Of a stretch of DNA of 53,274 bases, positions 2,592 to 38,465 are shown piece after piece. The notes beneath the pieces were generated by a model, which was not told the origin of the DNA, did not search any database, and saw only the letters and a program-made list of their open reading frames with translations. Each line of letters begins with the position of its first letter. Position 1 is the stretch's first letter. The translations under genes and the position numbers were made by a program. Source of the DNA: Acidobacteriaceae bacterium (lineage in GTDB: Bacteria > Acidobacteriota > Terriglobia > Terriglobales > Acidobacteriaceae); assembly GCA_003139795.1 (NCBI GenBank), contig PLGM01000314.1, forward strand, positions 1 through 53,274, written 5' to 3'.

Positions 2592-3518
2592 TCAGAATAC
2601 TTCCGAGATGCCTTCCGGCACAGGGGCGTGCTTGAGCAGGCCCAGTTCGTCGGCCAGGCGTTCCAGCCTGGCGCGGGTGGCTCCCGTGGGGGGTACCAGC
2701 GGCAGCCGGACGTGGTCGGCGCAGCGGCCCATGAGGTTGAGGACGGTCTTGACCGGGCCCGGATTCGACTCCCAGAAGTTGGCGTCGAAGAGGCGGGCGT
2801 AGCGGCGCTCCAGCTCGCGGGCCTCCACCCAATTGTTGCGGAGGGCGGCGCGGATCATGCGGCCGACCTCCCACGGGGTCTCGTTGGAGGCTACGCTGAT
2901 GAGCCCGTGGGCGCCGACGCCGATGGAGGCCAGGGCTAGGTTGTCGTCGCCACTGAAGATTTTGAAGCCAAGCGGGAGCGAATGGACCAGTTGGGCAATC
3001 TGGGGCAGCTTGCCGCTGGCCTCCTTGACGGCCTGGATGTTGGGAGCGGCCTCGGCCAGGCGGAGGACGGTTTCGGGATCGAGGTTGACGGCGGTGCGGC
3101 CGGGCACGTTGTAGAGGGCGACGGGGAGGGGGTCAACGGCTTTAGCGAGGGCCAGAAAGTGCTGGAACTGGCCCTCCTGGGAGGGCTTGTTGTAGTAGGG
3201 ATTGGCGGAGAGCACGGCGTCGATGCCGCGCATCTGGCGGAGGCGGCCGGCGAGGCGCAGCAGCGTGCGCGTGGAGTTGTGGGTGCAGCCGGCCCACACC
3301 GGCACACGGCCGGCCGCGGCCTCGGCTACGATGCACAGCGTCAGCAGCCATTCCTCTTCGTCCAGCGTGGCCGCCTCGCCTGTGGACCCGCAGGCCACCA
3401 GAAAGTCGATGCCGGAGTCGATCTGCCAGTTCACCAGCGCCCTGAGCGCCGCTTCATCGATCGATCCATCCGCCCGAAAGGGCGTAACGATAGCTGTACC
3501 GCAACCCGTGGTTTCCAT
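2592..3518 (-). CDS. dapA: 4-hydroxy-tetrahydrodipicolinate synthase
   Basis: A 308-aa protein, normal length for the family. It condenses pyruvate with aspartate semialdehyde, the first step committed to lysine and diaminopimelate. Visible motifs: GCGTAIVTPF at the start, ACGSTGEAATL (substrate carboxylate binding), LYNVPGRTAVNL with the catalytic Tyr, and QAVKEASGKL with the Schiff-base Lys. The start at 3518 (METTGCGTAIVTPF) fits the family; an upstream start would add 19 unrelated residues. It is the last gene of the minus-strand cluster asd-lysC-dapB-PAP2-dapA. The C-terminus EGISEVF is followed in frame by the DUF1080 remnant. Confidence 0.97.
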   Translation of the reverse strand: METTGCGTAIVTPFRADGSIDEAALRALVNWQIDSGIDFLVACGSTGEAATLDEEEWLLTLCIVAEAAAGRVPVWAGCTHNSTRTLLRLAGRLRQMRGIDAVLSANPYYNKPSQEGQFQHFLALAKAVDPLPVALYNVPGRTAVNLDPETVLRLAEAAPNIQAVKEASGKLPQIAQLVHSLPLGFKIFSGDDNLALASIGVGAHGLISVASNETPWEVGRMIRAALRNNWVEARELERRYARLFDANFWESNPGPVKTVLNLMGRCADHVRLPLVPPTGATRARLERLADELGLLKHAPVPEGISEVF

Positions 3519-3719
3519 GACAGATGAGTTTATAACGAACAGGGGTGCGCTGGAAAAGGCGACCCGCTGCACCAAGAGTGCATCCGCTACGAGCCGGTGA
3601 ACCTCAGGCGACCTGGTACGTGCGGTGGAAATGCCGGTGCATGGTTCGTGCTCTCCCAGGTCTCTCCGCCGCGGTCCGCCACGGCGGAAGGCTTGTGGCG
3701 CTCGGCAATCCGGGCATAC
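3519..3719. other. Intergenic spacer with dispersed repeat
   Basis: About 200 bp between the PAP2 gene stop and the dapA start. It contains CTCCCAGGTCTCTCCGCC and the core CCGCCGCGGTCCGCCACGG (about 3653-3690), a degenerate copy of the CCCAGGTCT hairpin family in the opposite orientation to the one at 315-356. No promoter was recognised with confidence. Confidence 0.5.
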
Positions 3720-4682
3720 CTACTCTGGTTCCGATGCGGCCAAGCCGATTCTTGTGAAAAGGAGGGGAGCGAGAAAGATGATCACGATGCCGGCGGCGGA
3801 GTAGCGGACGTATTCGAGAAAATAGCCGAGCGGGGAAGACTTGAGGGCAATCACGGCAAAGAACTTATCGAGAAACAGCAGCGTGGCGATCAACATGGCG
3901 ATGGAAAGAAGATAGCGCAGTATCTTGGCGGCGGCGTTCGAGCTGCGGGGATCGAAGTTCACCATCCTCAGCTCCAGCGGACGGGCGATGACGATGCCGG
4001 TCAGGAAACCAGCGGAGACTAAAGCCTCCTGCGGCTCGCCGGCGATGCGCCAACCGTTGACGGCAACGGTGAGCAACCAAAGCGCCAGGCTGGCTGCAAC
4101 GGCGGCTGCAATCTGCAGGGTGTAAGAGAGAAGGGACCATGCGGCCGAGATGGCTTCGGCGTATCTTATCCAGAGCAGGGCGACAGAGAGCCCGATGACC
4201 AAGCCGATGAGAACGTCCTCGGCATAATGCACGCCGAGATAGGGACGCGATATTCCTATAAGCAGGATGGCCATGACGGCGATAACTCGGACGTAGCGGT
4301 TCCTTACCGAGGCATAGAGATAGGAATAGAACGCGGACGACGCCATGGCGTGGCCGGAGGGGGTGGAATACTCGGCGGCAAGCGCGGCGGCGCTCTGGGG
4401 CGATACGGCCCACTTCTGGAGATAAGTTCCTTCGCGGATGAAAGGGCGGGGATTTTTGACGATGAGCTTCAATACGTCGTTGAGCGACGAGGAGAGCAAC
4501 ACCAATACCGAAAGCCGGATGGCTAACTGCTTGTTCCATGCGACATAGATCAGCGTGGCAATGAAGATGTAACCGGCGAAATTGCCGAAGAAGGTGGCGG
4601 CGAGAAAGAACCTGGTGAGGGGGATAGTTCTGTGGTCGGCCAGAAACTGCATGAGAGGCATATTGAACGGCAGCGGAGACAT
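3720..4682 (-). CDS. PAP2-family membrane phosphatase
   Basis: A 320-aa polytopic membrane protein. The three motifs of the PAP2/acid phosphatase family are all present: KLIVKNPRP (motif 1, about residues 93-101), PSGHAMASS (motif 2, about 128-136) and SRPYLGVHYAEDV (motif 3, about 165-177), giving the catalytic His and Asp. Members dephosphorylate lipid phosphates such as phosphatidic acid or undecaprenyl diphosphate. About 140 residues after motif 3 form three or four more membrane helices, longer than in minimal PAP2 proteins. It lies between dapB and dapA in the lysine cluster with no obvious link to that pathway. The substrate is not predictable. Confidence 0.9.
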   Translation of the reverse strand: MSPLPFNMPLMQFLADHRTIPLTRFFLAATFFGNFAGYIFIATLIYVAWNKQLAIRLSVLVLLSSSLNDVLKLIVKNPRPFIREGTYLQKWAVSPQSAAALAAEYSTPSGHAMASSAFYSYLYASVRNRYVRVIAVMAILLIGISRPYLGVHYAEDVLIGLVIGLSVALLWIRYAEAISAAWSLLSYTLQIAAAVAASLALWLLTVAVNGWRIAGEPQEALVSAGFLTGIVIARPLELRMVNFDPRSSNAAAKILRYLLSIAMLIATLLFLDKFFAVIALKSSPLGYFLEYVRYSAAGIVIIFLAPLLFTRIGLAASEPE

Positions 4683-33645: not shown

Positions 33646-34176
33646 ATGCGCGGACTCAAAGTTTTGATCGGAACTACAGCATTGCTCGCGGGCTTGGCCC
33701 TGGCGGCGCCGGTGGCTAAAGCGCAAGTCGTCGTCGATGTCGGCATTCAACCCGTCTGTGCCTATGGCTACTACGACTATGCGCCGTACGCCTGCTCGCC
33801 TTACGGTTTTTACGGGCCGGGGTACTTCTACAACGGCATATTCCTGGGCATGGGCCCATGGGCCAACTGGGGCTACGGCCACGGCTGGGGTAGCCATCGC
33901 TTCGGAGGCGGCGGCGGCGGATATGCGGGCGGTCGCGGCGGGTATGCGGGCGGTCGCGGCGGATATGCAGGCGGTCGCGCTGCGTATGCAGGCGGCGGAG
34001 CTCGCGTGAGCGGTGGCGCAAGACCCAGCGCAGGCCACGCCACAGCGGCGCGTGGCAGCACATCGCGCGCAACAGCATCCCACGCCTCAGCTGCGCATAG
34101 CAGCGGCGGTGGTGGCGGACATTTTAGCGGCGGCGGCGGCGGCGGACATGCCGGCGGCGGTGGCGGACACCGGTAA
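33646..34176 (+). CDS. Secreted Tyr/Gly-rich low-complexity protein
   Basis: A 176-aa protein with signal peptide MRGLKVLIGTTALLAGLALA and cleavage near AKAQ. The mature N-terminal part is aromatic (YGYYDYAPYACSPYGFYGPG, then YFYNGIFLGMGPW). It is followed by three to four GGYAGGRG repeats, an Ala/Ser/Thr region and a final His/Gly-rich part (SGGGGGHFSGGGGGGHAGGG), which may bind metal. No family is recognised; similar YxG-rich proteins occur in Acidobacteria as small envelope proteins. A strong inverted repeat precedes it and a terminator follows, so it is a single-gene unit. Confidence 0.8.
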   Translation: MRGLKVLIGTTALLAGLALAAPVAKAQVVVDVGIQPVCAYGYYDYAPYACSPYGFYGPGYFYNGIFLGMGPWANWGYGHGWGSHRFGGGGGGYAGGRGGYAGGRGGYAGGRAAYAGGGARVSGGARPSAGHATAARGSTSRATASHASAAHSSGGGGGHFSGGGGGGHAGGGGGHR

Positions 34177-35769: not shown

Positions 35770-36549
35770 GTGGAACCAGGTCCGTTCTCATTGGTCAAGT
35801 GGTATATGGATTGCGTCACCGATTCCGGCGACGCCGCAATCCTCTATTGCGCCGACTTTTGCTGGCGCGGCATTCATGCATCCTATTGCAGCGTGCTTAC
35901 CGTCAATGAGCTGGCGGCCGAATCCCATTCTTCGATGACCCGCTACCGGCTCTCCTCGACGGACGACCAGATCCTGGTCGAGTTTCCCCGGCTGGGAGTC
36001 TCTGGGAGGTGGGAGGCTATTGCCGCGCCTTATCAGCGAGTTGTTTACCAGAGCGCCTCGGGAAATGTGGTGTGGAACTGCCTGCAGCCCAGATCGTCGG
36101 TCTATCTTCGCGTCGGGGAGCGTGAGTGGACTGGCCTGGGTTACGCCGAGTGCCTCACCCTGACGCTGCCTCCATGGCAGTTGCCGATGCGTCAACTGCG
36201 CTGGGGGCGCTTTGTTTCGCAGCAGGATTCGCTTGCCTGGGTCGACTGGCAGGGGCCATATTCCACCAGCTTCGCGGTCTGCAACAGCCTCCCATGTCAG
36301 ACACTGTCGGTCACCGACTCCGAGGTCGTACTGCGCGATCTCTCGCTGCGCATGGAAGAGAGTTTTCCTCTTCGCGCCGGGCGCTTGGGCTCCACAATTC
36401 TCCCCGGAGCACCCGCGCTGGCCAGACTCCTGCCACGCTCACTCTTCAACATTGAAGAACAGAAGTGGAGGAGCCGCGGAATTCTGAACGCGCACGGACG
36501 CAGCAGCAACGGCTGGGTCATTCACGAGGTGGTTCATTGGGAACTGTAA
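35770..36549 (+). CDS. CrtC/AttH-like lipocalin-fold protein of unknown function
   Basis: A 259-aa protein, all beta in appearance. The GTG start at 35770 gives VEPGPFSLVKWYMDCVTDSG, resembling the conserved N-terminus (P-G-x-x-x-W-x-Y-x-D) of CrtC hydroxyneurosporene-synthase/AttH proteins. Later motifs: FPRLGVSGRWEA, GLGYAECLTLTLPPWQLPM, RQLRWGRFVSQQD and LAWVDWQGPY, as expected for the two lipocalin-like barrels that bind isoprenoid or other lipid substrates. No signal peptide. It overlaps the next gene by 13 bp, so the products should work together. The family assignment is by pattern only; no carotenoid genes are nearby. Confidence 0.5.
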   Translation: MEPGPFSLVKWYMDCVTDSGDAAILYCADFCWRGIHASYCSVLTVNELAAESHSSMTRYRLSSTDDQILVEFPRLGVSGRWEAIAAPYQRVVYQSASGNVVWNCLQPRSSVYLRVGEREWTGLGYAECLTLTLPPWQLPMRQLRWGRFVSQQDSLAWVDWQGPYSTSFAVCNSLPCQTLSVTDSEVVLRDLSLRMEESFPLRAGRLGSTILPGAPALARLLPRSLFNIEEQKWRSRGILNAHGRSSNGWVIHEVVHWEL

Positions 36550-38465
36550 GCCGTTCTCAACTGTTCAAAGTGTTATACGGGACGCTCTTTGTGGCTGTGC
36601 TTCCGCTGGCGCTTGTGCTGTGGGCGCATGCCACAAGAGACGCGGTGCATCTCGCGGCCCAGCGTTCGGTGCTTTGGGGATCTGCGCTGGCTGCGTTTGG
36701 CCTGGCCATCGCGTTGACGGGCATGATGTCGCTCTGGCGGTACGGCGGCGGCTTGCCCATGAACGCCTTTCCTCCGGTGCGTCTCGTCGCCAACGGCATT
36801 TATAGCCTGGTTCCGCATCCGATCTATGGCGGATCTGTGATTGCCTGCGCCGGTGTCGCCATCCTCTCCGGTTCAGCCAGCGGATTGTGGCTTGTAACTC
36901 CCACTGTGGCGTTGGGCTGCGCCGCGCTGGTTCTGGGCTATGAGCTGCCCGACCTGCGGAGCCGATTTGGAGCGCCTGCCTTCTCCGTCTGGCTGCCGCG
37001 CGATGGGCCTGCGGCCCCGTCCCTTCCAGAACGCCTGCGCGTTTATCTGGTGGTGTTGCTGCCGTGGCTGGCGGTCTTTGAGCTCCTGTGGCGTCTCGGT
37101 ACTTCAGTTGGCGCCATCGCCACGTACTTGCCTTTCGAGCGCCGCCTGCCGGTGATTGAGCAGACGGAGGCCGTCTACGCCAGCACCTACCTGGTTGTGC
37201 TGCTGGCGCCGTTGCTCATTGGCACTGGCCATGCGTTGCGACGCTTTGCGCTGCGCGGCCTGGTTGCGATGGCGCTCATCTTTCCGCTCTATCTGCTGCT
37301 GCCGTTCTTCGTTCCGCCGCGTCCGTTCCACTCGGCCACGCCGATCGGCCAGTTGTTGTTGTGGGAGAGAACTCCCTACTCGGGGATTGCCGCCTTTCCC
37401 TCGTTTCATATTGTCTGGGCGCTGATAGCCGCCTCCGCATTGGGTGAGGGCGGGCGCGCAAAAATGAACGCATGGTGGACGTGGGCGGCGCTGGTCGGTG
37501 TCAGTTGCGTCACGACGGGGATGCATTCGATCGCCGATGTGCTTGCCGGGGTTGTCGCCTTCGCCATCGTTGTCCGCATGCACGCTATCTGGATGGCCAT
37601 CCTGCGCGTTGCGGAATGGATTGCAAACTCGTGGCGGGAGTGGCGGATTGGGCCGATAAGAATCATCAACCACGGCGGATTCGCGGCAGCCGCGATTCTG
37701 CTCGGAGTGTGGCTCATCGGCGCGCTGCTCGGCCCTGGACGCGAATGGTTGGTGGTCAGCATCTTTGTCTGCTCCACAGTGGGAGCGGCGTTCTGGGCTC
37801 AGTGGGTGGAGGGATCGCCGGCGCTGCTGCGCCCCATGGGTTTTTACGGAGGCATGATCGGCGCTGCCATCGGAGGCGCTTCCGCGCTCTTGATCCATCT
37901 CGATTTGTGGATGGTGTTTGCGGCGATTTGCATCGCGGCGCCATGGATACAGGGAATAGGCAGGCTGCGCTGTCTGGTTCAGGGGTGCTGTCACGGACGG
38001 GCCACGGAAACGGCGGATGGGATTCGTTACACACACCCCCGCTCGCGTGTTTGCCGTCTCGCGCAGCTTTCCGGAGTTCCCGTGCATGCGACGCCTGTCT
38101 ATTCCATCCTGTGGAACCTGGTGGTCGGCGCCGCCCTTCTGCGCCTCCTCCAATTGCATTCTTCCGCCACGCTGATTTGCGGCGTATACCTCTTGCTGTC
38201 GGGGGCCGGGCGCTTCGTCGAGGAGGCCTATCGCGGCGAACCTCAGACCTTGGTCTTCTACGGACTGCGTCTCTACCAGTGGATCGCAACTCTGGCAGTC
38301 GTAGCCGGAGCCGTGGTGACCTGCGTCCATGGCCCGGCGATGCCGCGGGTATTCCCCTTGCGCATCAGCTCGATTCTGGTCACGATCGGATGCAGCGCCG
38401 TGGCCTGGTTTGTCACCGGAGTCGACTTTCCTGAATCATCGCGCCGCCTTGCCCGCCTGACCTGA
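36537..38465 (+). CDS. Three-part membrane protein: ICMT-like + PAP2-like + Lgt-like domains
   Basis: About 642 aa, some 16-18 hydrophobic helices. The start is taken as TTG at 36537 (GAGG seven bases upstream, overlapping the previous gene). Residues about 1-150: VRLVANGIYSLVPHPIYGGS and YELPDLRSRFG, the pattern of isoprenylcysteine/phospholipid methyltransferases (G-x-Y-x-x-x-x-H-P-x-Y). Residues about 170-350: a PAP2_3-like unit with GIAAFPSFHIVWAL (His near 290) and TGMHSIADVLAGV (His and Asp near 330), like inositol-phosphoceramide-synthase-type transferases. Residues about 375-620: Lgt-like, with RCLVQGCCHGR, HATPVYSILWNLVVGA and GAGRFVEEAYRGEPQ, then YGLRLYQW. All three domains handle lipids; I know of no such described fusion. 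The substrate is unknown. Confidence 0.75.
   Translation: MGTVSRSQLFKVLYGTLFVAVLPLALVLWAHATRDAVHLAAQRSVLWGSALAAFGLAIALTGMMSLWRYGGGLPMNAFPPVRLVANGIYSLVPHPIYGGSVIACAGVAILSGSASGLWLVTPTVALGCAALVLGYELPDLRSRFGAPAFSVWLPRDGPAAPSLPERLRVYLVVLLPWLAVFELLWRLGTSVGAIATYLPFERRLPVIEQTEAVYASTYLVVLLAPLLIGTGHALRRFALRGLVAMALIFPLYLLLPFFVPPRPFHSATPIGQLLLWERTPYSGIAAFPSFHIVWALIAASALGEGGRAKMNAWWTWAALVGVSCVTTGMHSIADVLAGVVAFAIVVRMHAIWMAILRVAEWIANSWREWRIGPIRIINHGGFAAAAILLGVWLIGALLGPGREWLVVSIFVCSTVGAAFWAQWVEGSPALLRPMGFYGGMIGAAIGGASALLIHLDLWMVFAAICIAAPWIQGIGRLRCLVQGCCHGRATETADGIRYTHPRSRVCRLAQLSGVPVHATPVYSILWNLVVGAALLRLLQLHSSATLICGVYLLLSGAGRFVEEAYRGEPQTLVFYGLRLYQWIATLAVVAGAVVTCVHGPAMPRVFPLRISSILVTIGCSAVAWFVTGVDFPESSRRLARLT

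Follow-up and report, generated by a model that had tools for sequence, protein, structure and literature searches.

The window, i.e. the whole 53,274-nucleotide stretch of Acidobacteriaceae DNA analysed here, contains on its forward strand a unit of two overlapping genes: a partner gene of 259 codons with a GTG start (35770..36549) and a fusion gene of 642 codons (36537..38465), which forms an uninterrupted open frame with a TTG start located within the end of the partner gene. The 13-base overlap of the two genes is exact in the window and in two relatives, L025 and L028 (3/3), in both of which the TTG at position 36537 corresponds to an ATG start. When the Pfam calls were judged against the curated cut-offs, three domains of the fusion protein were above threshold: a PEMT/ICMT-like methyltransferase domain (PEMT, residues 47-131; 36675..36929; 30.1 bits versus a cut-off of 25), a PAP2_3 domain (residues 211-345; 37167..37571; 40.5 versus 27 bits), and an LGT-like domain (residues 370-595; 37644..38321; 73.8 versus 24.9 bits). 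The Pfam ICMT model scored 13.9, below its cut-off of 24. A preliminary description of this DNA had read the frame as a fusion of ICMT-like, PAP2-like, and Lgt-like domains, and these Pfam matches bear out the three-domain fusion. All of the motifs that it quoted are present, i.e. HPIY in the first domain (36816-36827), FPSFH (37395-37409) and HSIAD (37524-37538) in the second, and GRLRCLVQGCCHG (37959-37997) and RFVEEAYR (38211-38234) in the third. A charged helix (residues 348-369; 37578..37643) lies between the PAP2_3 and LGT-like domains, and residues 610-642 (38364..38462) form an extra membrane helix (610-628 in the structure model) and a basic tail, with a GVDFP..RRFARL pattern that is conserved in the fusions and contains 2.8 Lys/Arg on average. 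The structure model of the fusion, which had also been suggested as a check, was built from 17 relatives (mean pLDDT, 86.5; pTM, 0.89), and its LGT and PAP2 parts match known folds. Elsewhere in the window, positions 33646-34176 contain a glycine-rich reading frame with YAGGRGG repeats.

Full-length relatives of the fusion, sharing 38-69% identity, were identified in other Acidobacteriota, a Myxococcales MAG, Neisseria wadsworthii, Alysiella, a Cardiobacteriaceae MAG, and beta-proteobacteria; two relatives from the same genus are 66% identical across the full length. A scan of genome contigs detected 14 fusion loci, including both same-genus relatives, a number that is a lower bound because the scan was pattern-based. 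These loci belong to Acidobacteriaceae, Bryobacterales, the Myxococcales and Cardiobacteriaceae MAGs, N. wadsworthii, Neisseria sp. 83E34, Alysiella crassa, a beta-proteobacterial MAG, and an Azonexus MAG. The full-length fusion is present in 4 of the 396 sampled Acidobacteriota genomes (the window's own genome counted) and in 5 of 83 Neisseriaceae genomes, and 398 genomes sampled from the phylum of the Neisseriaceae yielded no additional full-length copy. The same domain order, which the preliminary description had proposed to seek in other Acidobacteriota, thus occurs both there and in other phyla. Because this order is identical on independent contigs, a frameshift or assembly join, the artefact against which that description had warned, is excluded as the origin of the fusion.

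Matches to LGT, PEMT, and PAP2_3 (E-values up to 0.1) were obtained in 17, 16, and 15 of the 17 relatives, respectively, and the one relative without a PEMT match has lost its N-terminus at a contig end. The LGT domain is the most conserved, with mean pairwise identities among the fusions of 52% for LGT, 46% for PEMT, and 37% for PAP2. In comparisons of the window with three near relatives, pN/pS values were 0.23-0.44 and changes were mostly synonymous in all three domains, each of which is under purifying selection. In the tree, a beta-proteobacterial row groups with an Acidobacteriota row (98/97), and the neisserial-cardiobacterial rows group with another Acidobacteriota row (100/99); these groupings, from few rows, would fit horizontal spread of the fusion. 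A plasmid search gave no match. On one contig (L097, 3104-4012; G390:C15), fragments of the partner and the fusion lie in several frames as a decayed two-gene unit.

The partner gene adjoins the fusion at most loci with flanking sequence and was found in all 14 carriers searched (G000, G100, G315, G366, and ten more), even when the two genes are unlinked. In Alysiella, it lies on a separate contig and the fusion is preceded by an unrelated gene, and in the Cardiobacteriaceae MAG it is broken into two frames. The Myxococcales contig (L029) contains two copies with equal match scores, at 1124-1912 and 3104-3892, of which only the second directly precedes the fusion; this arrangement reflects either a duplication or an assembly artefact. 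A partner-like match in another genome (G156) is a truncated frame with no adjoining fusion domains.

None of the 13 partner members examined matched any Pfam family at E-values up to 1, CrtC (PF07143) included; NCBIfam gave no meaningful match for the partner gene product and has no dedicated model for either the fusion or the partner, and PDB sequence searches with the fusion or partner alignment returned nothing usable. The structure model of the partner (pLDDT, 94.2) has the CrtC/AttH/Diels-Alderase fold over its whole length (Z-scores of 17-22, 227-243 residues aligned), the matches being CghA, Fsa2, and Phm7 (21-22), 25-phosphosteroid lyase (19), AttH NE1406 (19), and kievitone hydratase (17.6). 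Members of this fold act on hydrophobic substrates (PMC4717167, PMC2954199), and CrtC needs a Tyr, an Asp two residues further on, a His, and a Trp (PMC4717167). In the partner, Y-x-E (Y-x-D in the G260 relative described below) and W-G-R are invariant, the Y-x-E/D having been compared with the CrtC catalytic position by eye only. Since the start of the frame shows no signal peptide, the partner is taken to be cytosolic; it is predicted to be an enzyme of the CrtC/AttH fold.

CrtC, 25-phosphosteroid lyase, and ICMT act on terpenoid-type substrates. An isoprenoid- or sterol-type pathway, in which the partner and the PEMT domain would act on a terpenoid, PAP2 would take off a prenyl phosphate, and LGT would add a glyceryl group, is favoured by the fold that the partner has in common with CrtC-type proteins and 25-phosphosteroid lyase and by the relationship of the PEMT domain to ICMT, yet we consider it rather unlikely. 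A squalene/phytoene synthase gene is present in 17 of 19 carriers, but it is also found in 69 of 83 Neisseriaceae regardless of the fusion, so that its role as a pathway partner is unsupported; moreover, two carriers lack this gene and no terpenoid gene recurs beside the two-gene unit.

A relative without the LGT domain was found in one acidobacterial genome (G260). Here, a homologue of the partner, with 26% identity, precedes a PEMT-PAP2 protein, after which come a LysA-like PLP decarboxylase and an aldehyde dehydrogenase, with close or overlapping frames. These four genes (L096, 3475-8701; G260:C6) possibly form an operon. In the methyltransferase part of the PEMT-PAP2 protein, the RHPIY motif is complete, and this part is similar to ICMT and weakly similar to the lipid A phosphate methyltransferase LmtA. 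No LGT-free relative was found in 37 other genomes of the same class. This single case suggests that the partner and PEMT-PAP2 make up an independent unit that either acquired LGT or is left after its loss.

The LGT domains of 17 fusions were compared with 19 single LGT proteins, using the residue numbering of Escherichia coli Lgt. The LGT part of the fusion model aligns with E. coli Lgt (5azb) with a Z-score of 16.4 (3.6 Å, 227 residues), and the equivalents of R143, R239, E243, R246, and G154 are kept in all 17 fusions; the two catalytic arginines together with E243 and R246, by which membership of the Lgt family was judged, are thus all present, in addition to the Pfam match. In every fusion, however, G145 is replaced by Arg and Y26 by His, whereas position 26 is Y or F and position 145 is G in 19/19 single LGT proteins. 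D129 is replaced by A or G in the fusions, unlike in any of the 19 single proteins, and R478 and H379 of the fusion are new and invariant. In E. coli Lgt, R143 and R239 are essential and the G145A/I/V and Y26A/F/Q variants are inactive (PMC4728403); two residues needed by that enzyme are therefore absent from all fusions. At least one separate, better-scoring LGT gene was found in 14/14 carrier genomes tested, and likewise in the window's own genome, which makes it improbable that the fusion serves these bacteria as their lipoprotein Lgt.

Two other features of the domain were rejected as marks of special chemistry. The GCC(H)G motif is not distinctive, because the sole other Lgt in several Bryobacterales genomes and a Myxococcales genome has GCC(W/Y/F)G, and Cys at 146/151 and Tyr in place of H103 are shared with Bryobacterales Lgts. 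The window's genome also contains a second LGT-family gene (L002; G000:C340:20459-21208), with counterparts in three relatives (L056, L057, and L058), in which R143 is replaced by Q and R239 by I, V, or L; judged from these residues, it is likely to be a non-catalytic Lgt paralogue.

In the structure model, ten membrane helices (four PEMT and six PAP2) lie ahead of the LGT domain. The helix at residues 348-369, whose best 17-residue hydropathy averages 0.11 and which contains 5.6 charged residues, is by its composition too polar for membrane crossing. In the LGT loops of the fusions, the active-site side carries 8-15 Lys/Arg and the other side 0-3 (17/17), whereas the corresponding numbers in the single LGT proteins (n = 19, E. 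coli included) are 3-11 and 5-10; the basic C-terminal tail, reached via the extra helix, is also on the active-site side. PAP2 relatives face the periplasm. When helices 1-10 are placed so that their large basic loops are inside, the LGT active site of the fusion is predicted to be cytoplasmic and the PAP2 site periplasmic, a topology that rests on the positive-inside rule, for which 17 related sequences do not amount to 17 independent tests. The predicted orientation of the LGT domain is opposite to that of E. coli Lgt, the active site of which is periplasmic (PMC4728403). This topology, if correct, leaves the pockets of LGT and PAP2 on opposite membrane faces and would require the product to cross the membrane.

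These data bear on the possibility that the fusion is a specialised second lipoprotein Lgt, with an LGT domain that lipidates cysteines of some secreted proteins on the periplasmic side and with by-products, for example glycerol phosphate or diacylglycerol, being handled by the PAP2 and PEMT domains. The catalytic arginines and E243/R246 equivalents kept in 17/17 fusions, the fold match to E. coli Lgt, and the presence of Cys 146/151 and Tyr 103 in ordinary Bryobacterales Lgts all agree with such an enzyme. It is nevertheless improbable, because the Arg at 145 and the His at 26 found in all fusions occupy positions at which substitutions inactivate the E. coli enzyme, the loop charges and helix count predict a flipped domain, 14/14 carriers have a separate Lgt, and the cytosolic CrtC-fold partner would have no role. 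The separate Lgt in 14/14 carriers, the replaced Y26 and G145, and the loop charges that would put the site in the cytoplasm likewise speak against the Lgt-like diacylglyceryl transfer put forward in the preliminary description, which mentioned neither the partner gene, nor the separate Lgt and the replaced residues, nor the reversed loop charge; its more general proposal, that the fusion builds or remodels a lipid, is retained.

The PAP2 part of the fusion model matched LpxE (Z-score, 12.6), Aur1-Kei1 (11.9), inositol phosphorylceramide synthase (11.7), and sphingomyelin synthase-related protein (10.9); values near 12 for a helical domain are close to the warning level of the tool, and these PAP2 matches represent one superfamily with motifs that agree. 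Both the Pfam match and the His-His-Asp set identify the domain as a PAP2_3 member, H330 and D334 being present in 17/17 fusions and H291 in 16/17 (one has FPSFQ). The PEMT part is assigned to the PEMT/ICMT group by its above-threshold Pfam score, with a motif histidine that is not invariant: H94 is present in the window, and 3 of 16 relatives have D or Q at this position. Among the fold matches, no solved structure corresponded clearly to this part, possibly only as an effect of model size. Given the variation at H94, methyltransferase activity appears to be the least certain activity of the fusion, and this drift and the single FPSFQ suggest that not every domain is catalytic in every lineage. 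That only the LGT (or PAP2) domain works, the remaining domains being scaffold or regulatory remnants, would fit these replacements and the loss of both catalytic arginines in the paralogue L002 of the same genomes, by which the LGT family does shed activity, but it is quite unlikely in view of the LGT core residues that are invariant over deep divergence, the invariant H330 and D334 of PAP2, and the purifying selection on all domains.

We favour, with a probability of roughly 0.45, a module of two genes, rare and patchy in its distribution, for the synthesis or remodelling of a single unusual membrane lipid. Lipid building would be the role that the folds suggest most naturally. This proposal is based on the three lipid-enzyme domains that score above their cut-offs in one frame and keep their order across phyla; on the partner, which is present in 14/14 carriers searched and has a fold whose members act on hydrophobic substrates; on the invariance of the LGT core, R478/H379, and PAP2 H330/D334; and on the separate Lgt in 14/14 carriers, the reversed loop charges, the joining helix that is too polar for a membrane span, and the existence of an LGT-free relative. 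It is weakened by the drift at H94 and the single FPSFQ, by the predicted opening of the LGT and PAP2 pockets to opposite faces, and by the wider neighbourhood, in which, besides the overlapping frames of the two genes, only the partner recurs in at least three loci and hence no other biosynthetic gene does so. The fusion, the kept partner, and the apparently inverted LGT domain together point to a lipid that probably nobody has described.

We infer the chemical steps of this module from folds and residues. The cytosolic partner would carry out an acid-type hydration, elimination, or cyclisation on a hydrophobic substrate. The LGT-like domain, with its pocket in the cytoplasm, would use an anionic phospholipid as the donor of a glyceryl or diacylglyceryl group and transfer this group to a small or lipid acceptor via the arginine-pair mechanism of Lgt, and the extra arginine, R478, may hold one more negative charge. 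The periplasm-facing PAP2_3 domain would then remove or exchange a phospho-headgroup via its His-His-Asp set; phospho-headgroup removal or exchange is the reaction of LpxE and the phosphorylceramide synthases. The PEMT/ICMT-like domain would methylate an intermediate and, in some lineages, perhaps only bind it. The specific reading of the LGT domain as an upside-down Lgt-fold transferase, which has a cytoplasmic site, no longer serves lipoproteins, and acts with the outward-facing PAP2 domain and the CrtC-fold partner to yield a glycerolipid, is more tentative, with somewhat less than an even chance of being correct.

No description of the PEMT-PAP2-LGT combination was found among the open-licence papers searched, in agreement with the preliminary description, which knew of none. 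Lgt is regarded as a family with one reaction and one orientation, and as an antibiotic target. A conserved relative that combines the Lgt arginines with a changed pocket, a predicted orientation opposite to that of Lgt, and fusion to two further enzymes suggests that the Lgt fold could perform other chemistry, and the two-gene unit indicates that soil Acidobacteriota and cultivable Neisseriaceae may contain an envelope lipid that is so far undescribed.

The LGT domain of the fusion shares the fold, the Pfam match, and R143, R239, E243, R246, and G154 with Lgt (PF01790; E. coli, PDB 5azb), but it sits behind PEMT and PAP2 domains, has Arg for G145 and His for Y26, and has lost D129. Its loop charges are reversed, so that it faces the cytoplasm by prediction, it is followed by an extra C-terminal helix and basic tail that ordinary Lgt lacks, and it is never the sole LGT gene product of its genome (14 carriers). 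With LpxE (6ebu), Aur1-Kei1 (9ivc), and inositol phosphorylceramide synthase (9vj4), the fusion has a six-helix PAP2 core (Z-scores of 11.7-12.6) and the His-His-Asp set with FPSFH and H-x3-D in common, whereas it lacks the Arg before the C3 histidine (Cys324 is invariant instead) and is joined to two other membrane domains. Four helices, HPIY-x-G, and the following E...L..RFG are shared with the PEMT/ICMT methyltransferases (PF04191 and PF04140), from which the fusion differs in that the motif Arg is mostly missing, the His is lost in some members, and PAP2 and LGT are attached behind. The partner shares its whole-length fold with the CrtC/AttH/Diels-Alderase proteins (CghA, 6kbc; Fsa2, 7e5t; 25-phosphosteroid lyase, 9fzn; and AttH NE1406, 2ich), but is only 8-11% identical to the solved members, is about 60-120 residues shorter, and, unlike them, has no Pfam match and is associated with the fusion. 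The folds of the parts are known; what appears, as far as checked, to be new is the way in which the domains are combined, together with the partner, the substitutions at Lgt positions, and the predicted inversion.
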